Shown piece after piece: positions 1 through 26,560 of a stretch of DNA of 26,560 bases. The position numbers were made by a program, and so were the translations under genes. Under the pieces are notes generated by a model. That model was given only the letters and a program-made list of their open reading frames with translations. It was not told the origin of the DNA and ran no database searches. How positions within the stretch are numbered: position 1 is the first letter of the stretch; each line of letters starts with the position of its first letter. Source of the DNA: a virus; the IMG/VR virus record IMGVR_UViG_3300041583_000040, positions 1-26,560 of that record; one strand, 5' to 3'.

Positions 1-317
1 AGTCTATTAATAACCTACATTTAATATGTGCTTTGATATACAGGCCAGTTACTAAATATGTTAGTGATGAAGAATATGAAATAGAAGAACATAAGACACA
101 AGGGTTTATGAAACGATCCGATTTATTCCTAAAAGAGTTATCAATATCAACTGTGTTCGGATCTGTTCTTTTTTTTTCAGCTTCCGGGATCAAGTTTATC
201 GAGATTATGGCGGACTATTTGGAGGACGAAGCGAAGATAGTGACACAGAAGAAGAAGGCATCCGAGAGGAAGAAGAAAGCGACAACCCAGAAAGCTTCGA
301 AGAAAGACAACAAGTAG
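1..317 (+). CDS. Tail assembly chaperone, frame-0 product (5' partial)
   Basis: The reading frame is open from position 3 at the window edge to the stop at 315-317, so this is the C-terminal part of a gene. A TTG at 33 could be read as a start, but coding continues upstream (residues SINNLHLICALIYRPVTKY), so I reject it. The block 'ALIYRPVTK', then a Tyr/Glu-rich stretch, then 'VFGSVLFF' and an amphipathic tail match my recollection of the small tail chaperones of Bacteroidota siphophages, which bind the tape measure during tail assembly like lambda gpG. The last 22 residues are very basic (KKKASERKKKATTQ). A second frame, open underneath and continuing beyond the stop, suggests a gpG/gpGT-type pair. 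Its place at the head of the tail genes fits, although the tape measure lies 10 kb downstream instead of next to it. Confidence 0.6.
   Translation, partial: SINNLHLICALIYRPVTKYVSDEEYEIEEHKTQGFMKRSDLFLKELSISTVFGSVLFFSASGIKFIEIMADYLEDEAKIVTQKKKASERKKKATTQKASKKDNK
170..176 (+). promoter_or_regulatory. Candidate -1 ribosomal slippery site T TTT TTT
   Basis: A run of nine T (169-177) is read in the chaperone frame as CTT TTT TTT TCA. Positions 170-176 therefore form a perfect X XXY YYZ heptamer in the phase needed for a -1 slip into the frame that ends at 469. A slip here gives complete re-pairing of both tRNAs. I looked for other heptamers in the shared open region (95-317) and saw only poor ones in the AAG/AAA-rich part near 270-300. 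One caution: frame 0 after the T run still looks like good protein (FSASGIKFIEIMADYLED), so the true slip could lie further downstream. Confidence 0.45.
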
Positions 318-469
318 AGTTTCAGAAAACTTGGTGGTTATATGATATGGTATTCTCAGTATCTGATGAAGACTTAACTAAAATGGAATTTATTTGGAAG
401 ATGCCATTCAAAGGTTTCTTAAATCATTTAAGTTATAAGATATCTAAAAACAATATAAAAAGAAATTAA
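176..469 (+). CDS. Tail assembly chaperone, -1 frameshift extension (T-like domain)
   Basis: In the -1 frame relative to the upstream chaperone, the sequence is open from 95 to the stop at 467-469. It has no ATG before about 345, so it cannot be a normal separate gene. Read after a slip at the T run, it gives a short linker, a strongly acidic stretch (DTEEEGIREEEES) and then a compact domain with 'KTWWLYDMVFSVSDEDLTKM' and 'MPFKGFLNHLSYK'. The pattern Trp-Tyr followed by a hydrophobic/acidic helix and 'P-hydrophobic... L-x-Y' resembles the second chaperone domain I know from Bacteroidota phages, the equivalent of the T part of lambda gpGT. The next gene starts 10 nt after the stop. The alternative is a pseudogene fragment, but the domain looks intact and the overlap is free of stops for more than 200 nt. 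Confidence 0.55.
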   Translation, partial: FSFRDQVYRDYGGLFGGRSEDSDTEEEGIREEEESDNPESFEERQQVEFQKTWWLYDMVFSVSDEDLTKMEFIWKMPFKGFLNHLSYKISKNNIKRN

Positions 470-479: not shown

Positions 480-965
480 ATGAGTATAGGATATTTAAGC
501 CAGAACGGTGTAAACAAAATGTTTGGTCAGTTTTCTGAGGCAGACCCGAACCTGAATCAATATGGTTTCGGTCAGTTGTATAATCAGAATGGTGAGCCTA
601 AGGTTGATCAGAAGTACAAAGGGATGTGGGTTAACCCAGTTCAATCCTTTGTAAATGAATATACAGTAGATAGAACATACCAGATTCTAATCTATGATGT
701 TGTATATGAAGATGATGATGGTACAAGCCAGAATAAGATTATATCTGATTGTGAAGAGATTGCATTCAGACTAATTAGATTCTTGAGAAACAAGTCAGAT
801 ATATTTGATTTAACACAATCACCAACAGTTCAACCATTTACAGATAGATTCTTAGATAATGTCTCTGGTGTTATTATAGATATAACTATTGAATTTAATG
901 GAGAGTCTGCTATATGTGAAGATCCTAACTATGACTTTAATATAACACAAAATAACTTAGACTAA
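480..965 (+). CDS. Conserved virion protein, tail/neck associated
   Basis: This 161-residue protein matches a type I recognise from Bacteroidota phage structural regions. Its centre reads 'YQILIYDVVYEDDDGT', then 'IISDCEEIAFRLIRFL', then 'VQPFTDRFLDNVSGVI' and a final beta strand 'DITIEFNGESAICEDP'. The family is usually annotated only as a structural or tail-completion protein, and I know of no proven role. The start at 480 is supported by the 34-nt leader that ends exactly at this ATG. The stop overlaps the next start (TAATG at 963-967), so translation of the following fibre gene is probably coupled. The position just after the chaperone suits a tail-terminator or neck role, which is inference. 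Confidence 0.5.
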   Translation: MSIGYLSQNGVNKMFGQFSEADPNLNQYGFGQLYNQNGEPKVDQKYKGMWVNPVQSFVNEYTVDRTYQILIYDVVYEDDDGTSQNKIISDCEEIAFRLIRFLRNKSDIFDLTQSPTVQPFTDRFLDNVSGVIIDITIEFNGESAICEDPNYDFNITQNNLD

Positions 966-2293
966 TGGCTCAGAAAAAAACAGGTAATAGTGTAAACAGT
1001 AATCTTCAAGGAGATTCATTTATAATCAACAATGGATTAACAGCCTCAACACAATATAAATTTATTGGTGCTACTGATACTATATTCTACTTACCAATAG
1101 TAGATGGTGCTGCTGGGTATTCATTAATAACTGATGGTTCAGGTAACCTTTCATTTGGTACAGTATCAAATCAAGGTAATGTTCAATCTCCACTAGGTGG
1201 TGGTACAACCCCACAATTAGCATATTGGACTGGTTCTCAGTCACTAGGAGATTCAGACCTTCAACAAGGTACGGGTCAGTTATTATTCCCAAGTGGTTCA
1301 GCACCATCCCCAGGTATATCATTTCAATTAGACACAGACACAGGTATCATAAGACCATCTGCCAATAAAGTAGGTGTAGTTGCTGGTGGTTCAACAATAG
1401 CCACATTCGATTCTAATGGTATAAAAGTTGGTTCAGTTACTTATAATGGTACAGATGGTCCATCAGGTTATACTTTAGTGACTGATGGTTCAGGTAATTT
1501 ATCGTGGGGGTTCAATGGTGGACCAACTGGTCAGACAGGTGCCACAGGATCAACGGGTTCACAAGGAGATATAGGAGCAACGGGAGCAACGGGAGCTGAT
1601 TCAACATTACTAGGACCAACAGGTGCCACTGGTGCCACTGGTTCACAAGGAGCAACGGGTGGTGTTGACAACCAATTCTTATATCAATCAAATGTAGTTG
1701 ATGGTGCATCCTTTAGTGGTTCACCTTTATATTATGATGTAACTTTTGTTGGAACATTCACAGCATCTTATGTTGTTAGTATAGATTCAGAAGAAGTAAG
1801 AGATTGGTCAACAAGTAATAAGACTGCAACTGGGTTTAGATTAGAAAGTAATTCAACATCAGTTTTAGTAGAAGATGTTTATTGGAATGCAATTGAGAAT
1901 ACATCAACAACATTAGGATCCTTCATAGGTTCACAAGGACCACAAGGAGCAACTGGAGCAACTGGAGCAACAGGAGCCGATGGTTCTACTGGATCAACTG
2001 GATCAGCAGGGCCTGAGTTTACACCATCTGATACAACTGGATTAGTAATAGCATTCACATCATCTTTAATATATAATTCACCATCTGTACCTGGTACTTC
2101 ATCTATAACAGATGACTTGACAGGATCTAACGTTGGTATTATACAAAAAATATATCACAATTATACAACTGGACCAACACTACCCGTAACTTGGGTTAAG
2201 TTAGGACAAGGTACATACTCAATAGGTACACTTAATATAATCTATTCTGAGTGGGTAACTGGTACAAGAGTTGAATATTGGATCGTAAACTAA
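965..2293 (+). CDS. Tail fibre protein with two collagen-like blocks
   Basis: This is a modular fibre protein of 442 residues. Two copies of a motif of the form 'GYxLxTDGSGNLSxG' lie near residues 51-65 and 168-182. Between them, near 118-155, is a segment with 'DTDTGIIRPSANKVG' and 'AGGSTIATFDSNG', a motif common in phage fibres and shared with the gene at 22165. Gly-X-Y repeats, mostly GAT, GST and GSQ, fill about residues 186-232 and 322-350. They flank a beta-rich domain at about 233-321. The C-terminal 90 residues are beta-rich and probably form the trimeric tip. Collagen-like blocks in phage fibres are known to form rigid triple-helical stalks. The start overlaps the previous stop (TAATG). 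The 80- and 65-residue opposite-strand frames in this gene are shadows. Confidence 0.75.
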   Translation: MAQKKTGNSVNSNLQGDSFIINNGLTASTQYKFIGATDTIFYLPIVDGAAGYSLITDGSGNLSFGTVSNQGNVQSPLGGGTTPQLAYWTGSQSLGDSDLQQGTGQLLFPSGSAPSPGISFQLDTDTGIIRPSANKVGVVAGGSTIATFDSNGIKVGSVTYNGTDGPSGYTLVTDGSGNLSWGFNGGPTGQTGATGSTGSQGDIGATGATGADSTLLGPTGATGATGSQGATGGVDNQFLYQSNVVDGASFSGSPLYYDVTFVGTFTASYVVSIDSEEVRDWSTSNKTATGFRLESNSTSVLVEDVYWNAIENTSTTLGSFIGSQGPQGATGATGATGADGSTGSTGSAGPEFTPSDTTGLVIAFTSSLIYNSPSVPGTSSITDDLTGSNVGIIQKIYHNYTTGPTLPVTWVKLGQGTYSIGTLNIIYSEWVTGTRVEYWIVN

Positions 2294-2294
2294 T

Positions 2295-3356
2295 ATGGGA
2301 GTTAATAGCACAGATCATAATTATAGAAGATTAATTCAGAATGACCTTTCACTTGTGTCTGGTTTAGTAGTTGGTAGTGTCTTAGTACCTGAATACGGGT
2401 TCTCATTTAATCTAAGTGCGGCATCCGTAGATAGTCATATTATAGGACCAGTATTCCATCAGAAACCTAATGGTGATGTTATCGCTTATGGAGCATCTAA
2501 CTCAGGTACATACATACAAGGAGTTTGGAAGTCAACGGATGCTGGTGAGAACTGGGTGAAACAAGGAGACTTAATAGATTCAACATTCACTGGTGCTGTC
2601 GGTACTGTAGCTTATAACGGAACTACATATTCAGCAGTATCCGGTAGTAATATATTATATTCATCTGATGCTATTAATTGGTCAATAGGATTTACATCAT
2701 CTTCTACATTGAAGAAAGTTATTTACGTTGAGGATGGACCAACACTTGGTGGAACCAATTCATATTTCTACTATCTAAATGGGTCTACTACCTTATACGC
2801 ACAACCAGGAGAGGGTTCGATGGTTTCGAGTACAGGTCAATCCTATACTACTATATCATCAATTAATACAGTCGGACAAGGTGACTTAGGTAACACTGAT
2901 GTGGTTTGGTGTAGTGGGTTAAACCTTTTTATGAGAATTGGTAATGTACGTAATAGTGGTCATCAGAAAATACATTGGAGTGAAGATGGTGAGAATTGGT
3001 ATATGGTTAGTGGTATAACTGGATCATACAAACAGTGGTGTTCAATTGAATATTCAGAATCATTAAACAGGGTGGTCGTTATTGGTATTGATAATAACTC
3101 TGCGTCATACACTGTGTATAATGGTGTATCAGGAGATGGTAAAACATTCACACTCTATACAACTGATGTGGTAACTTCATCCAGAAGAATGGTTAAGTGG
3201 ACAACTAAATCACAAGAGTTTGTAATAGTTGGTGCTGGTACAGGTGTATATACCAGTGGAACTGGAAACGATGATTGGGTATTGAGAGAATCTCTATTGT
3301 TTTCAGCATCACCAACAGCAACTCAGTTTGATGTAACAATACAATTAGACTATTAA
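2295..3356 (+). CDS. Asp-box (BNR/sialidase-type) beta-propeller virion protein
   Basis: Of its 353 residues, five stretches match or approach the Asp-box S-x-D-x-G-x-x-W: 'STDAGENW' at 80-87, 'SSDAINW' at 123-129, 'SEDGENW' at 229-235, 'SGDGKTF' at 279-285 and 'SGTGNDDW' at about 321-328. Spaced repeats of this kind mark beta-propeller blades, as in sialidases and other carbohydrate-active or carbohydrate-binding proteins. I see no clear set of sialidase catalytic residues (Arg triad plus Tyr/Glu), so binding is more likely than cleavage. The gene follows the collagen-like fibre by one base (TAATATG) and its stop overlaps the next start (TAATG). It is therefore probably made with the fibre and may serve as its receptor-binding head. 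Confidence 0.65.
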   Translation: MGVNSTDHNYRRLIQNDLSLVSGLVVGSVLVPEYGFSFNLSAASVDSHIIGPVFHQKPNGDVIAYGASNSGTYIQGVWKSTDAGENWVKQGDLIDSTFTGAVGTVAYNGTTYSAVSGSNILYSSDAINWSIGFTSSSTLKKVIYVEDGPTLGGTNSYFYYLNGSTTLYAQPGEGSMVSSTGQSYTTISSINTVGQGDLGNTDVVWCSGLNLFMRIGNVRNSGHQKIHWSEDGENWYMVSGITGSYKQWCSIEYSESLNRVVVIGIDNNSASYTVYNGVSGDGKTFTLYTTDVVTSSRRMVKWTTKSQEFVIVGAGTGVYTSGTGNDDWVLRESLLFSASPTATQFDVTIQLDY

Positions 3357-9348: not shown

Positions 9349-10565
9349 ATGATAGAACGTAACTCATTATATGGGTATAAAATAAAATCCACAGCCTTAT
9401 CGCTAAAATAGAACAGTATTCAAGGTTGATTAACCACGGGTTATCAACATCGACAGAACAATTCACGGTTCCTACAAGTAATGACCATACAGATGAAACT
9501 TGGGTTAAGACGGATTTGTATATAGGTGAAATAGGTATAAATATATCAGATGATACAATCTTTATGAGAACCAATAATGGTATCGTTCAGATTTCAACAG
9601 GTACATCAAGTGGTGGTACATCTTCTACTAATAGTATATTCACATTTGACACACCAGACATTAAGATTGGTGCAACTTATTCAGCAGATTCATTATCACC
9701 AAGAAGTGGTTACTATACTGATTTAGGTAGTACATCATTGAGATGGAAAGACTTATACTTAGGTGGTCAAGCTTCAGGAGCAGCAACTATCAATGTTAAT
9801 CAAGGTCTTGTATTGAGAGAGGCTACTGATTACATTATAACAACTAATAACATATCAAGTAATAATTCACCCATTGAAATAGGTACTACATCAGCCGATG
9901 TAGATAAAAATAGATTGTTACATCTGAACTCACGTAACGTTTATGGAACTGGGTCTAATAGTCAAGTAGTTTCAATGGCTTCTCATGGGGTTATATTCTC
10001 TAATAATATAAATTGTGCCGCTATCGGTTCTGATTCATCAGAGTTTGGTAATACGGTTGAGAATGTAGTTCAATTAGGAGTTACTCAGAACAGAGTTAAT
10101 GAAGTTTCTAACCAAGTTATAGCTGGTGGAGAATTGGCTATAAGAGGTGTACAGGATGATGGTACTACACAATACAACAAGTCTGATTGGATTACTTCAC
10201 AAGATTTATTAAGAACAACAAATGCTTTATCTACAGCAATTACAACTATACCTTGGTCATCAACGGCTTCAGGTGGTGATGTTATTCAAGTTAAAGCACA
10301 TATAATAGGAACTGATATAGCAGATGCATCACTTGTATATTCATCAGAAATAATGGGTGTGTATTCTATAAGTGGAACAGCATCTGGATTAATAGTTACA
10401 GAAATAGGAACACCTATATTAAATGCAGTTTCAACATTCACAGATGTGGATTGTGAGATGAGTGCTGATAATGATAATGTATATGTACAAGTACAGGGTG
10501 TTGCATCGAATACAATACAATGGTTATGTAGTTACAGTTACCATAGATTAATTAATGTATATTAA
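9349..10565 (+). CDS. Fibre-like tail protein with a one-base frame break near its start
   Basis: The leader-supported ATG at 9349 reads MIERNSLYGYKIK... but hits TAG at 9409-9411. The main frame, open from 9381 to 10565, begins within the same stretch (NKIHSLIAKIEQYSRLINHG) and has no ATG near its start. One extra A in the runs at 9379-9387 would join the two into MIERNSLYGYK-NKIHSLIAKI..., with an N-terminal helix. The body has motifs common in phage fibres: 'KTDLYIGEIGINISDDTIFM' and 'GSTSLRWKDLYLGG'. The C-terminal half is beta-rich. It sits between the tail-tip gene and the tape measure, with only two bases before the latter. It could be an indel in the genome, a sequencing error or a programmed -1 shift. 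A TTG at 9426 is the only conventional start in the main frame and I do not trust it. Confidence 0.55.
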
Positions 10566-10567
10566 AT

Positions 10568-13500
10568 ATGGCAAGTACTTATCAATTAAATGTAAAAGTA
10601 AATGGTGTTGACCAAGCGGTCTCTACTATTGGTGAGTTAGAATCTGCGTTAGCCGCTACTAAAGAAGAACTTAGTGGATTAGATATTGGTTCTGATGCCT
10701 TCCAAAATTTAGCAAAACAAGCCAGAACACTACAAGGTGAATTAGAAACTAATTCCGAGAAATTAACTAACTTCAATGGTAACTTAGATAACATCACACA
10801 ATCTGTGGGTCGTCTTGGTTCTACTATTGCTGGTGGATTCGCAGTTGCTACGGCAGCTATCGGTTTATTTGGAGCAGAGGGTGAAGATTTAAGTAAAGCA
10901 CAAGTTAAAGCACAACAAGCACTTACATTAGCCTTTGGTGTTACTACTATTGCGACTAATGCTGCAAGGATATCACAAGATTTAAAGAACGTAGCTGATT
11001 CCTTAGGTATAAATATTGGTAGAATTAAAACAGCAACAACTATATCAGACTCGGTAGTTACTGGGGCAAACACTGTTGTTACTGGGGCACAGACTGTTGC
11101 AACAGGAGCGGCAACTGCTGCTCAATGGAATTTGAATGCGGCTATGTTGGCTAATCCAATTGGGTTAGTATTACTTGGTGTTACTGCCTTAGTTGGTGCT
11201 CTAATACTATTCTCTGGTCAATCTGAGAAATCAACTCTAAATACTACTAAATCAACTGAAGCTTTTATTAAAGAAACAGCAGTTATTAAAGAGAATCAAT
11301 CCAGTATATTAGAATTGATAAAAGGTAAGGCTGAGTTATTAATAATATCAGAAAAGGATGCAACTAAGAGATTACAATTGGAAAATGATTTATATAACAA
11401 GTTATCACAAACAGAACAAGAATTCTTAAACGAGAGAAAGAAAAGAAATGATGAATCATTCAAAGAAGCAATTCAAGAATTTGGAAGAATAAATGAAGAA
11501 TATTTAAAGACAACAATCGTTACACAAAAAGAGATTATCGAATGGCACGGTAACTCTGGTCGTACAATACAGAAGGAGATTACTAAAGAGATTAACTTAA
11601 TGGATAAAGCCATAGATGCTAATGTAAAAGCTTATGAGAAGAATAAGGAAATAAATGATAAAGAATTATTAGAACTAAAGGAAAGATTTGGTGAAGAGAT
11701 TATAACAGAAGAGGTTGCGGCTTTAAGACTACAACAATTAGATGCTAAGCACTACTTGGCCTTAATAGATCAACAAGAGGAATACTTAAAGAAACAAGGT
11801 AAGTTAAGTGATGATGCTATCAAGGAAAGATTTGAATCATCTAAGAAAAGTTTACAAGATTTATTATCTTCATTAGAGGATAATATAAAAAGTCAGATAA
11901 AAATAAACACTGATAAGAATAAGAAAATAAAAGAGGATGACTTAAAGGCGTTTGAGGAACAAAAGAGAATAAATGAGAAGAGAGCCGATGATTGGAAAAA
12001 GTATTACGGTGATATCATTAAGATGGCTGATGATGCTGGTCAGAAACTAATCGACATACAATCTGATTATCAAGATAAGATTGAGGATGAACAGACTAAG
12101 GGTGATTTAGCCAATATAGAATTACAAAAGAAAAGGTCACTTGAAAGTATTGAGCTTATTAGATCTGAAGCAACTGCTGAGATAGAAGCATCAAAATTAA
12201 AAAAAGCTGAGAAGGAGAAACTAATCGATGAGATAAATGGTTATGCTCAATTAGCAATTAGTGAAGAGACATCGTTTTATCAAATAAAGATTGATGAACA
12301 AACAGCCATTGATAAAGCCAGAGTTGAACAACTTAAAGTTATTAACCAGGTTCTTATTGATGAATATACTTATGGTGATAATAACATATTAGATAGTAAG
12401 AAAGCTCTTAATCTACAACTACAACAATTAGAGATAGATTATCTAAGTGACCAGGATGTATTAAGAGATAATGTCCAAGGTAACTATAAAGAAAGGAACC
12501 GATTCTTATTGGCTCTTAAAATAGATGCTCTTAATAAAGAAAGGGAGTTAACAATATCAGCTATACAAGCTGGAGCAAATCAAGAGTATGATATTGTCGT
12601 TGACAATTTAAGAAAACAATATGATATTGAGAAGTTATTTGTTGGTAAAAGAATTGATTTAATAAAGACTGGTACATTAGAGGAGTTACAAGCTGATTAT
12701 GATGCGGCTGTGGAGAGTGGTAAATTAAATGATGAAGAATTAGAAGCTTATAAGGTTATATTAGAAACTAAGAAAAACTTAATACTTAAATCAGATGGTG
12801 AGATATTTGCCATTACTGAATCATCAAGACAAAAGAGAATAGATGCTGAGAAAGCAACAGAAGATGAAATATTTGCTTATAAAGTACAGAAGCTCAAGGA
12901 GGCATCAGATTTAGCATTTCAATTCATTAACGCTGGTTTACAAATAGCCAATGATATAAATGCTTTACAGAAAGTAGGGTTAGAGAATAATCTATTTAAT
13001 ATACAAGAGAACTTGACGGCACAAGAAGCATCATATGATGAATCTTATAACAATGAGTTGGCTCTATTAAATAACAAACTGAACGAGGGTACTATTTCAC
13101 AAGAACAATACAATGAACAACAGAAAGCATTACAAACAGATTTAGATAAGAGTAAGGTAGATGCACAACACAAGGCAGATTTAGAATCTTACAAAGCTAA
13201 GAAGAAAGCATTTGAATCTGATAAGAAATTAAAAATAGCTCAGTCTATTATCGCTGGTGCTCAAGGTGCCATTTCAGCATTCGCAGGAGCAATGCAGTTG
13301 GGACCTATCGCCGGTCCGATTGTTGGTGGTATTTTAGCCGCGGCTGTTGGTGTATCTACTGGTATACAAGTGTCCGCTATAAAGAAAACTAAATTTAACG
13401 AGTCACCACCTTCAATACCACAAACACCTACACCCAATTTATCCGGAGGTGGATTGGGAGGATCGGATGCCTTAAATACAGGATCGGGAGGTGGACAAAC

Positions 13501-19694: not shown

Positions 19695-20519
19695 ATGAGT
19701 AACACAATATACATATTACAAAAAGATGGTACTTATAAGAAAACTATCTATTCAGAGAAAGAGATTAAAGGAAACTTAGCTCTTACAGAAGATCTATTAC
19801 CTATTGGTGCCACTGGATCAAATGGTTTAGATGGTAAGATTGGTAGAGATGGTAAAGATGGTATTAATGGTGAGAATGGTATTCAAGGTATACAAGGAGA
19901 GTTTGGTTTACAAGGGATTCCTGGTTTAAATGGGATTCAAGGTGAAACTGGACCAATTGGTCTTCAAGGATTACCAGGTGATGTAGGTCAAGAAGGTAAA
20001 GAAGGTATGATAGGACCAATGGGTCTTCAAGGATTACCAGGTGAGACAGGAGATATTGGACTAAGAGGTGAGAAGGGTGAAATAGGATTACAAGGACTTA
20101 CTGGTAAGAATGGTCGTATGGGTGTTCGTGGTGAGAAAGGAGATAAAGGAGATGTTGGTCCTAAGGGTTGGAGAGGTGATATGGGATTACCAGGAGTCAC
20201 AGGAGCAACCGGACCAAGAGGTATTCAAGGTATACCAGGACCAAGAGGAATGGGTGGTATGGGACCAGCTGGACCCGTTGGACCAGCGGGTGCAGGTACA
20301 TCACAATATAGATTCATAACTGATGAGATAACTATTCAACCAGGAGAACAACAGGTTGCTTATGATTTATACATAATTGATAAACTAATAGTATCTGGTT
20401 CAGATCAATCATATTTAATTGGGTCACAAACTTTTAGTAATGATTCTTTATTAAATATAAAGACTGATATATGGATCGAAGGAACATTCGAGGTAAGTGG
20501 AATAGTAACATTTGATTAA
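19695..20519 (+). CDS. Collagen-like fibre protein, charged-triplet type
   Basis: This 274-residue protein has a short N-terminal part (1-37), then about 54 uninterrupted Gly-X-Y triplets (about 38-199), then a beta-rich C-terminal domain of about 75 residues ('FITDEITIQPGEQQVAYDLY'). The triplets are diverse and include many Lys-Gly-Asp/Glu combinations (GEKGDKGD, GKDGINGEN) and Gly-X-Pro. In bacterial and phage collagens such charged pairs stabilise the triple helix without hydroxyproline. This differs clearly from the Thr/Gln-only triplets of the next gene. The C-terminal domain is probably the trimerisation or receptor-binding head. A 69-residue frame inside it in another phase is a shadow. 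Confidence 0.8.
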   Translation: MSNTIYILQKDGTYKKTIYSEKEIKGNLALTEDLLPIGATGSNGLDGKIGRDGKDGINGENGIQGIQGEFGLQGIPGLNGIQGETGPIGLQGLPGDVGQEGKEGMIGPMGLQGLPGETGDIGLRGEKGEIGLQGLTGKNGRMGVRGEKGDKGDVGPKGWRGDMGLPGVTGATGPRGIQGIPGPRGMGGMGPAGPVGPAGAGTSQYRFITDEITIQPGEQQVAYDLYIIDKLIVSGSDQSYLIGSQTFSNDSLLNIKTDIWIEGTFEVSGIVTFD

Positions 20520-20551: not shown

Positions 20552-21367
20552 ATGGGTTTAATAAACATTAGTAGAGTATTAGGTGGTTCATCATCAGTTC
20601 CAACACCATCAAGTGGAATAGATACACTATTCAACGAAGGTGGTGTTTGGTATTTCAAAGATTCAAATGGAGTCGTAAGTTTAATAGCTGCAGGTATATC
20701 ATACATTACAGGTGCTACTGGTGCAACTGGTGCTCAAGGTGATCAAGGGATTCAAGGAGACCAAGGAATTCAGGGTATTCAAGGAGACCAAGGTATACAA
20801 GGAGATACTGGATCAACTGGCTCAACTGGAGCAACTGGAGCAACTGGATCACAAGGAATTCAAGGAGACCAAGGTATACAAGGAGATACTGGAGCAACTG
20901 GCTCAACTGGAGCAACTGGAGCAACTGGAGCAACTGGATCACAAGGAATTCAAGGAGACCAAGGTATACAAGGAGATACTGGAGCAACTGGCTCAACTGG
21001 ATCAACTGGAGCAACTGGAGCAACTGGATCACAAGGAATTCAAGGAGACCAAGGTATACAAGGAATTCAGGGTATTCAAGGAATTCAGGGTATTCAAGGA
21101 GACCAAGGTATACAAGGAGATACTGGAGCAACTGGCTCAACTGGAGCAACTGGATCACAAGGAATTCAAGGAGACCAAGGTATACAAGGAATTCAAGGAG
21201 ACCAAGGTATACAAGGAGATACTGGACCAACTGGCTCAACTGGAGCAACTGGACCTGGAATTACATCAACTGGACCAACAGATATTAACTCTATGTGGAG
21301 TGGTAGTCAGGCTCAATACGATGGACTGGGTTCTTGGGACTCAGATACAATCTATTTTGTAGTTTAA
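20552..21367 (+). CDS. Collagen-like fibre protein, Thr/Gln triplet type
   Basis: In this 271-residue protein, residues 1-53 form a small domain with '[19 protein letters not shown]'. Residues 54 to about 236 are about 61 Gly-X-Y triplets built from very few types (GAT, GST, GIQ, GDQ, GDT, GSQ). The C-terminal 35 residues hold '[13 protein letters not shown]' and 'DTIYFVV', a pattern (W-x-G-T/S-Q-x-x-Y-D... T-h-Y-F-V) that I know from the ends of many phage fibre and tail proteins. The repeat DNA is nearly identical between units, so its length may vary between isolates. Its stop overlaps the next start (TAATG). The 216-residue + frame and the 177-residue - frame inside it exist only because the repeat lacks stops in other phases. 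Confidence 0.85.
20711..21259 (+). repeat. Degenerate 9-nt-based tandem repeat encoding Gly-X-Y
   Basis: The blocks 'GGAGATACTGG' begin at 20801, 20882, 20972, 21116 and 21215. The distances are 81, 90, 144 and 99, all multiples of nine. Higher-order units of the form '[18 protein letters not shown]...' are therefore duplicated or deleted without leaving the triplet register. This is a slippage or recombination repeat within a gene, not a CRISPR array. Confidence 0.85.
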
Positions 21368-22680: not shown

Positions 22681-23930
22681 TGATACAAATTAATTTCTTC
22701 GGGATGAATAAGTTTATCGGTGGTGTATTACCTCCTGTAGCAGATTTTACTGTTAATAGTGTGTTCTGTAATACAGGTGAGGTTTTAGCATTCACGGATT
22801 TATCAACAGAAACACCAACAAGTTGGGCTTGGGATTTCGGTGATGGTAATACATCTACGTTTGAAAACCCAACACATTCTTATTCAACACAAGGAACTTA
22901 TTCAGTTAGTATGACAGCTTCTAATGCTGATGGGTCTGATGGTGAGGCTAAAACTGATTACATACAATCTATTGAATGGTTAGGAACTTCTATAATAATG
23001 GGTGGCATGAGAGATGATGGTGATGTTCTTAGAAGCAATCTATTATCTGGTACATTTAATTGGCAAAGTGACCCATTTTCTGGTAGTAATATAAACTTCG
23101 CTGCTATTGGTGTAGCACTTAATAGATTTAATGAAATATATGTTGGTTCTAGATGGTATGGAACAGAAACATACACATTCGTTAAGACTAATTATGATGG
23201 TGATATTATTTGGGGTATTGATACAAATACATTCTGTTATGGTGCAATGGTTGATAATAATGATAACCCTTGGGTAAGTATTGAGGGAAATATTATAAAG
23301 ATGGATCCAAGTGATGGTACTATATTAGCTACCGGTGGGTCAGGATCATTCACAGCATATGATATGGCGGGTGATATGGATGGTAATATTTATACAGCAA
23401 TCTATAACTCATCTAATAATTTACAAAAATTTGATAATGATGCTAATTTCTTATGGGAAGTAAGTGATCACGGTGGTAACTTACAATCAATTGCGGTTCC
23501 GTTATCAGGAACTTATGTGGTTGCTGGTGGTGTTAGAACATCTAATATAACTTGGAGAAAATGGGATTCAGATGGTAACTTAGAATATTCTAAAGATACT
23601 GGTTCTACATTTTTCTATACTGGTAGAAATATATTCGTAGATGAAGGAAATGATTCTATCTATGTAATATCTGAGAATGAGAACCTTAGAAAATACTCAT
23701 CAGCTGGTACATTACTTTGGTCACAAACATTAAGTTGTTCTTGGTGTAGAGCATTCTTCGTTATGGGTGATGGTACACACATATACACAGGTGATCAAGC
23801 ATATGGATATAGAAGATACACAGATGCTTATCCATTAGTAGCCGCTGGTGGTTATGATGCTGGTGCTATGTTCACAATATGGTTTGGTGCTATATGGCCT
23901 TTACCTTACGGAAGAAATAATATAACATAA
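22680..23930 (+). CDS. PKD domain plus beta-propeller virion adhesin
   Basis: In this 416-residue protein, residues about 19-97 are a textbook PKD domain: 'PVADFTVNSVF', 'FTDLSTETPTSWAWDFGDG' and 'HSYSTQGTYSVSMTASNADG'. From about 98 to the end there are repeats resembling blades of an NHL/PQQ-type propeller ('NEIYVGSRW', 'GDIIWGIDTNTF', 'GNIYTAIYNSSNNLQKFD', 'DGNLEYSKDTG', 'DSIYVISENENLRKYSSAGT'). PKD and other Ig-like domains on virions are known to bind surface polysaccharides or mucus. No catalytic site is visible. No signal peptide is needed for a virion protein and none is present. It is translated together with the fibre gene before it. Confidence 0.7.
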   Translation: MIQINFFGMNKFIGGVLPPVADFTVNSVFCNTGEVLAFTDLSTETPTSWAWDFGDGNTSTFENPTHSYSTQGTYSVSMTASNADGSDGEAKTDYIQSIEWLGTSIIMGGMRDDGDVLRSNLLSGTFNWQSDPFSGSNINFAAIGVALNRFNEIYVGSRWYGTETYTFVKTNYDGDIIWGIDTNTFCYGAMVDNNDNPWVSIEGNIIKMDPSDGTILATGGSGSFTAYDMAGDMDGNIYTAIYNSSNNLQKFDNDANFLWEVSDHGGNLQSIAVPLSGTYVVAGGVRTSNITWRKWDSDGNLEYSKDTGSTFFYTGRNIFVDEGNDSIYVISENENLRKYSSAGTLLWSQTLSCSWCRAFFVMGDGTHIYTGDQAYGYRRYTDAYPLVAAGGYDAGAMFTIWFGAIWPLPYGRNNIT

Positions 23931-25876: not shown

Positions 25877-26128
25877 TTATAGTAATGAACCACTATTTAG
25901 TTTTCTACTTATTATTTCTGCCGATACACTTACAATAGATGCCATCATTACATCTTGTGTGAATGCTAATCCAATCCAGAATGAAATACAGAAACAACAT
26001 TCAAGTAGCCTTCTAAACCAATTTTGTTTATCTTTGAATATCAATTCTCTCAAAGCCATTGTAGGTTCTGAATTTACCCATAAAGCACCGATACAAGCGG
26101 CACCCAATAGATTAAGTAATATCTCCAT
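25877..26128 (-). CDS. Small membrane protein, two or three segments
   Basis: This 83-residue protein has hydrophobic stretches at about 4-18 ('LLNLLGAACIGALWV'), 43-57 ('ECCFCISFWIGLAF') and 60-75. 'WFRRLLECCFCISFWIGL' resembles small membrane proteins (DUF1360-like) found often in Bacteroidota phages near lysis or early genes; three Cys cluster at 44, 45 and 47. Function is unknown, and a holin-like role is only possible by its build. The start overlaps the end of the sigma-like gene by 17 nt, so its translation is coupled to that gene. A 64-residue + strand frame over it is a shadow. Confidence 0.55.
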   Translation of the reverse strand: MEILLNLLGAACIGALWVNSEPTMALRELIFKDKQNWFRRLLECCFCISFWIGLAFTQDVMMASIVSVSAEIISRKLNSGSLL

Positions 26129-26560
26129 ATTTATCTCTTATTTTTTGTTTTAATTCTGTTAACATACTAAACACGGCTGATAATGGAATACCCAATATCT
26201 CACCAATATCTCTCATACTTTTCATGTTCGTGAAATATAAATCATATAAAACTTTTTCGTGTGTGTGTAGTGTTAAATATATTTGTCTGAACCTCATTAA
26301 CTTATCACCAGTCTCTTCACCAAACTCACGATACGTATCAACCATCCAATCTTTAATGTCTTTCCTATCACTCTCACAATACACATTAATTAAATTTTCT
26401 TCTGATTCATCTTGAATAGTAAATTGTTTATTAAGATTGTTTATACGAATCTCTTTATTAAATGAAGAGTTATACCATTTACTATTATTCTTTAACCAAG
26501 TGTTTGTAAATTTCAACCTCTGAACATCATCAGGTATACGATTGAAAGTCTCCCAATTCT
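26112..26560 (-). CDS. Sigma-70 region 4-like HTH protein (5' partial)
   Basis: The frame is open to the right edge of the window: upstream of a TTG at 26516 it continues as NWETFNRIPDDVQR, so the gene starts outside and the TTG is not the start. The visible part ends in 'HEKVLYDLYFTNMKSMRDIG' and 'EILGIPLSAVFSMLTELKQK', the arrangement of a region 4 helix-turn-helix of sigma-70-like factors (a helix ending in Leu-Tyr, then 'S-x-x-x-I-a/g-x-x-L-x-h-x-x-x-x-V' and a recognition helix). The N-terminal part is charged and not recognised. It may direct late or middle transcription, or be a small-terminase-like DNA-binding protein. It is the first visible gene of the - strand operon. Confidence 0.5.
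   Translation of the reverse strand, partial: NWETFNRIPDDVQRLKFTNTWLKNNSKWYNSSFNKEIRINNLNKQFTIQDESEENLINVYCESDRKDIKDWMVDTYREFGEETGDKLMRFRQIYLTLHTHEKVLYDLYFTNMKSMRDIGEILGIPLSAVFSMLTELKQKIRDKYGDIT

Follow-up and report, generated by a model that had tools for sequence, protein, structure and literature searches.

A length-conserved run of nine T's that probably joins overlapping G-like and T-like frames of tailed phages by transcriptional slippage

The DNA analysed here (the window) is a virus record of 26,560 bases, and the gene under study is cut by its left end. Two overlapping reading frames and a neighbouring gene lie in this region (Table 1). The junction of frame 0 and the -1 frame is formed by CTTTTTTTTTC, which holds nine T's at positions 169-177, the only run of nine or more A's or T's in the whole window (26.5 kb). 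The earlier note had described a frame-0 stop at 315-317 overlapped by a -1 frame that is open from 95 to 469 and has no usable start, together with a T TTT TTT heptamer in the proper phase. Both reading frames were recovered as described, the heptamer was found in that phase inside the nine-T run, and the only start codons of the -1 frame are situated at 347, 383 and 401. The 5' end of the G gene, however, lies outside the window, which corrects that note. The stretch 180-315, for which an enrichment in G had been claimed, contains 29.4% G, where the mean across the window is 19.2% (SD 5.1%); this is raised but not extreme, being above the 95th percentile (27.9%) and below the 99th (32.7%).

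Table 1. Features at the left end of the window
Feature	Position	Strand	Basis
G-like protein, frame 0	3-317 (5' end beyond the window; stop 315-317)	+	ORF; homologous to L004, L005 and P12024S_38
Parts of the G-like protein	conserved G domain up to the T run; last 46 residues a Lys-rich tail from the overlap	+	ORF
T9 run, putative slippage site	169-177	+	sequence; frame 0 reads CTT TTT TTT TCA
T_TTT_TTT heptamer, in frame-0 phase	170-176	+	inside the T9 run; sequence
-1 frame: acidic linker, then T-like domain (FQKTWWLYDM...LNHLSY)	170-469	+	conserved across relatives
Dual-coded overlap, G-rich	178-317	+	position-specific substitution rates; G content
Next gene, 161 aa, function unknown	480-965	+	conserved neighbour in L004/L005, 65-70% identity

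Searches with the window's own short frames as queries against viral contigs and annotated phages gave no matches. With the downstream gene (480-965) as query, two viral contigs, L004 and L005, were retrieved (identities in Table 1). Both carry the same gene upstream of this neighbour, each with T9 and a -1 frame. The cultured Nonlabens phage P12024S (L006) was reached via its portal protein; its T9 is located within P12024S_38, which directly follows the terminase gene, and a portion of the -1 frame has been annotated as a separate gene, P12024S_39. These two annotated hypothetical proteins occupy positions 23578-23830 of the phage genome, and P12024S_39 corresponds to the T domain of the -1 frame, with an internal ATG as its start; this ATG and the frame-0 stop overlap in TAATG (23661-23665). 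The relation of the G family was supported by a match of phrog_32199, the family of P12024S_38, to the G protein of L005 (E=1.4e-8). Searches blind to the run were performed with the alignment-based LYRP motif of G, yielding 32 loci, and with motifs of the T domain, yielding 80 loci (the best 80 of 169) and 15 loci. Together with the window and L004-L006 the search loci provided 127 sites, 68 of them non-redundant after removal of near-copies. Two search loci were exceptions: L155, in which the run has been lost, and L139, which starts inside the T domain and could not be read. The relatives retrieved belong mostly to one broad clade, and no prophage relatives were detected in two scans of bacterial genomes.

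Of the non-redundant sites, 68 when the window is counted, 64 carry T9, three T10 and one T11, and none is shorter than nine. The alignment of homologues proposed in the earlier note showed that the run, both frames and their -1 relation are kept at 68/68 of these sites, which represent dozens of phages of distant relationship. Run length is identical between sites that share the codon phase and at least 70% upstream identity, and conservation of the -1 frame begins exactly at the run. The second domain was not encountered as an independent gene; in L155 it is fused in frame to a second copy of G. Nor was a run seen that varies and breaks the frame relation, as it is the codon phase that varies and not the length or the relation of the frames. 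Judged from these alignments, the frameshift arrangement is real and conserved far beyond chance, and programmed -1 recoding that joins the G-like and T-like domains is strongly supported.

Substitutions between close pairs were counted by codon position (1/2/3) of frame 0. Before the run they amount to 0.085/0.048/0.211, as in normal coding DNA, and beyond the frame-0 stop to 0.066/0.165/0.092, the pattern of the -1 frame. In the overlap of G and the -1 frame the values are 0.062/0.122/0.117, differing from both flanks (chi-square p=0.005 and about 4e-32). This is consistent with constraint on both frames of the overlap, though the -1 pattern would be blurred as well if the linker were under weaker constraint. 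The switch from a basic to an acidic tail, which the earlier note had pointed out, is present in the window, where the Lys-rich tail of frame 0 has a net charge of +6 and the -1 linker one of -9. Its acidic half is general, an acidic linker being found in almost every relative (net charge -5.8 on average, over 28 residues). The basic half is frequent without being general: the frame-0 tail has a mean charge of +3.3 among the relatives, with a range from -4 to +11, an acidic linker is paired with a clearly basic tail in 40/68 sites, and P12024S has no such switch. As the Glu codons GAA and GAG become the Lys and Arg codons AAG and AGG when read one base on, the charge switch needs no explanation beyond this codon offset.

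A different arrangement is found in L155. Its G-like gene at 1832-2446 keeps the FF pair at its end as TTC TTT T, without a T9 run, and is followed in tandem by a second G-like protein that is fused in frame to a T domain (2446-3237). In this fusion the G part was recognized with E=2e-10 and the T part with E=1.4e-8 (hhalign, against the T domain of the window's close relatives); the similarity of the first gene to G is weaker (E=1.5e-5). An AF2 model of the fusion from its single sequence was too poor for use. The arrangement is known from one contig only; as the run is gone and both products are still encoded, it suggests that G and G-T are products under selection.

The -1 frame had been described as a recognisable second chaperone domain. 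It is indeed a conserved domain among the relatives, but neither window frame matched Pfam or PHROG chaperone families. The PHROG match obtained for G of L005 is a family of unknown function. For the L005 G domain, AF2 gave a confident model (pLDDT 90), which had no fold match in the PDB; in BFVD it matched uncharacterised phage proteins, and weakly and partially (E 0.16-0.21) proteins named tail assembly chaperone. In the relatives checked, the gene order is terminase, G/G-T and two small genes, one of them tail-completion/Neck1-like. The tape measure gene of the window, at 10568, is about 10 kb downstream and does not directly follow G/G-T, which speaks against a chaperone identity. From architecture and neighbourhood we infer a role of G and G-T as tail assembly chaperones. 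At 10044-10927 (minus strand), Flavobacterium phage 6H (L166) carries a protein, probably gp10, that is a remote relative of G by fold; its gene precedes the tape measure gene and overlaps a -1 ORF. The TTTTTTC heptamer of this phage cannot lead to the -1 ORF by a simple shift, since this ORF opens only after a -1 stop. Three proteins with collagen-like Gly-X-Y repeats are also encoded in the window (965-2293, 19695-20519 and 20552-21367).

As to how the frame is changed, the earlier note had proposed the ribosome and the T TTT TTT heptamer. Its programmed -1 shift between the two domains is strongly supported, whereas the ribosomal heptamer is less well supported than slippage of RNA polymerase. 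The T9 run occurs in codon phases 0, 1 and 2 of the G frame, with at least four changes of phase on a tree of 67 members; one of these is the T10 run of L102, in which the start of the run has moved by one base. Next to the FF pair the residues vary between lineages (frame 0: L, S, Y, F, T; -1 frame: F, L, Y), and the number of T's stays nine. Baranov et al. (2005, PMC1088944) regard a 9A/9T run whose length is conserved among homologues as indicating purposeful slippage in transcription. The remaining coding DNA of these loci, 274 kb, was compared with synonymous shuffles: it has 7 sense T7 runs against 33 expected, 1 run of T>=8 against 5.8 and 12 runs of A>=8 against 39.9. The depletion of T runs is based on small counts, and a possible alternative cause is that such runs are prone to mutation. 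The sole T>=8 run counted there is a T10 in L004 (2757-2766), which lies inside another long ORF (2128-3345) and was assembled without a frame change. No RNA structure beyond that of shuffled sequences was detected upstream or downstream of the run at the 68 sites (mean z near 0).

If the ribosome were to shift at T_TTT_TTT (170-176), unstimulated and at a low level as it does for G-T of lambda, the T's in excess of seven would be a by-product of Phe-rich dual coding; Phe codons are in fact dual-coded in both frames, and some of the T's are held in place thereby. Seven T's in one phase are enough for a ribosomal -1 site, and any T9 run contains an in-frame T_TTT_TTT whatever its phase, so that the heptamer is present in all relatives. 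As the G-T shifting of other phages is ribosomal and seemingly needs no stimulator (PMC5009743), the sequence alone is compatible with a ribosomal shift. However, U_UUU_UUU performs poorly in E. coli, whose ribosomes shift far less on it than on A_AAA_AAG (PMC5009743). Although seven T's would suffice, not one of the 68 sites has been reduced below nine, T_TTT_TTC or another heptamer never stands in place of the run, and the count of nine persists where the neighbours of FF have changed. A ribosomal shift is thus possible but rather unlikely. Run length is conserved, codon phase is free and a ribosome could do with less, which argues for the polymerase rather than the heptamer: most likely it is RNA polymerase that slips on T9 and not the ribosome, giving one extra U in some mRNAs. 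The sequence would also permit polymerase and ribosome to slip on the same U9 run, a double mechanism which we consider improbable.

Two further explanations do without recoding at the run. The T domain could be made as a separate protein if ribosomes re-initiated at an internal start close to the end of frame 0, which is what the annotation of P12024S_39 implies; the TAATG of P12024S would allow this, and in 13/68 sites some start codon lies no more than about 10 nt from the frame-0 stop. Between the run and 15 nt past the frame-0 stop, however, the -1 frame lacks ATG in 57/68 sites and any of ATG, GTG and TTG in 41/68, the window has no start before 347, the -1 residues just past the run are conserved, and a true G-T fusion is encoded in L155. 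A separate re-initiated T protein was rejected for most relatives, as start codons are mostly absent after the run, and is highly improbable as a general explanation; for the window, the T-like domain is expected as a G-T fusion only. An error of sequencing or assembly, or a decayed gene, might be suspected, since homopolymers are error-prone. Yet the same run and frames recur at 127 sites, which come from many independent assemblies and include a cultured phage, so this reading is ruled out by the relatives and its probability is negligible.

We return to slippage of RNA polymerase, by which G and G-T would probably be made from one gene, G-T being reached via the -1 frame. The polymerase would stutter on T9, so that a share of the mRNAs carries U10, with one U added; the loss of two U's would have the same outcome for the frame. 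Ordinary translation of the U10 mRNAs would then run into the -1 frame and yield the fusion. The products would be the short G and a probably minor G-T, composed of G, the acidic linker and the T domain, and their ratio would depend on how long the run is. Both products are presumably really made. With somewhat less assurance, we favour a broader view, which concerns a large group of uncultured tailed phages, kin of a cultured Bacteroidota phage. In this group programmed slippage of RNA polymerase on a length-locked T9, setting the G : G-T ratio, would have taken the place of ribosomal frameshifting, and at least one lineage would then have escaped by gene duplication and in-frame fusion. A sigma-factor-like protein is also encoded in the window (26112-26513, minus strand; PHROG match E=2.4e-5), and the phage may thus alter transcription by the host polymerase.

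These results extend the G/G-T product pair to a group of phages in which no database names it, and provide a clear candidate for the same protein ratio being set at transcription instead of translation. Comparison with lambda-type phages would show whether selection keeps the ratio and not the mechanism. Annotation misses the putative second product, as is seen in P12024S, where G-T is split into two hypothetical proteins. No report of T9 slippage in tail chaperone genes was found in the literature searched, which mostly did not include subscription papers.

The pair resembles gpG/gpGT of lambda in its two products with a common N-terminal domain, a C-terminal T domain added via a -1 shift, the lack of a stimulatory structure and the location of these small genes among the structural genes of a tailed phage. 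As in the gpG/gpGT type, the G and T frames overlap, T lies in the frame that a -1 shift late in G would reach, and a slippery heptamer is present in frame; this applies to all 68 sites, the window among them. The lambda site is a GGGAAAG-type heptamer, unlike the length-locked T9 described here, which is free in codon phase. The two systems also differ in that no profile match to known chaperone families was obtained here, that the genes are flanked by terminase and neck/tail-completion genes, with the tape measure gene about 10 kb further on, and that slippage is probably transcriptional and not ribosomal. A wider set of frameshifts in tail assembly chaperones has reportedly been described by Xu, Hendrix and Duda in 2004. 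Programmed transcriptional slippage on 9A/9T runs, as in Thermus dnaX (A9), Shigella mxiE (U run) and IS elements, shares with the present case a length of nine conserved among homologues, the avoidance of long runs elsewhere and a conserved shifted frame. The longer product would result from insertion of a single U, as it does in mxiE; unlike dnaX, mxiE and the IS elements, slippage would here serve a phage G/G-T pair. The tail chaperones of T4-like phages are reportedly made without frameshifting (Vladimirov et al. 2022), and in L155, too, the two products seemingly come from two genes. L155 differs from that case in that the rest of its family uses the run, and in that its second copy of G is joined in frame to T.
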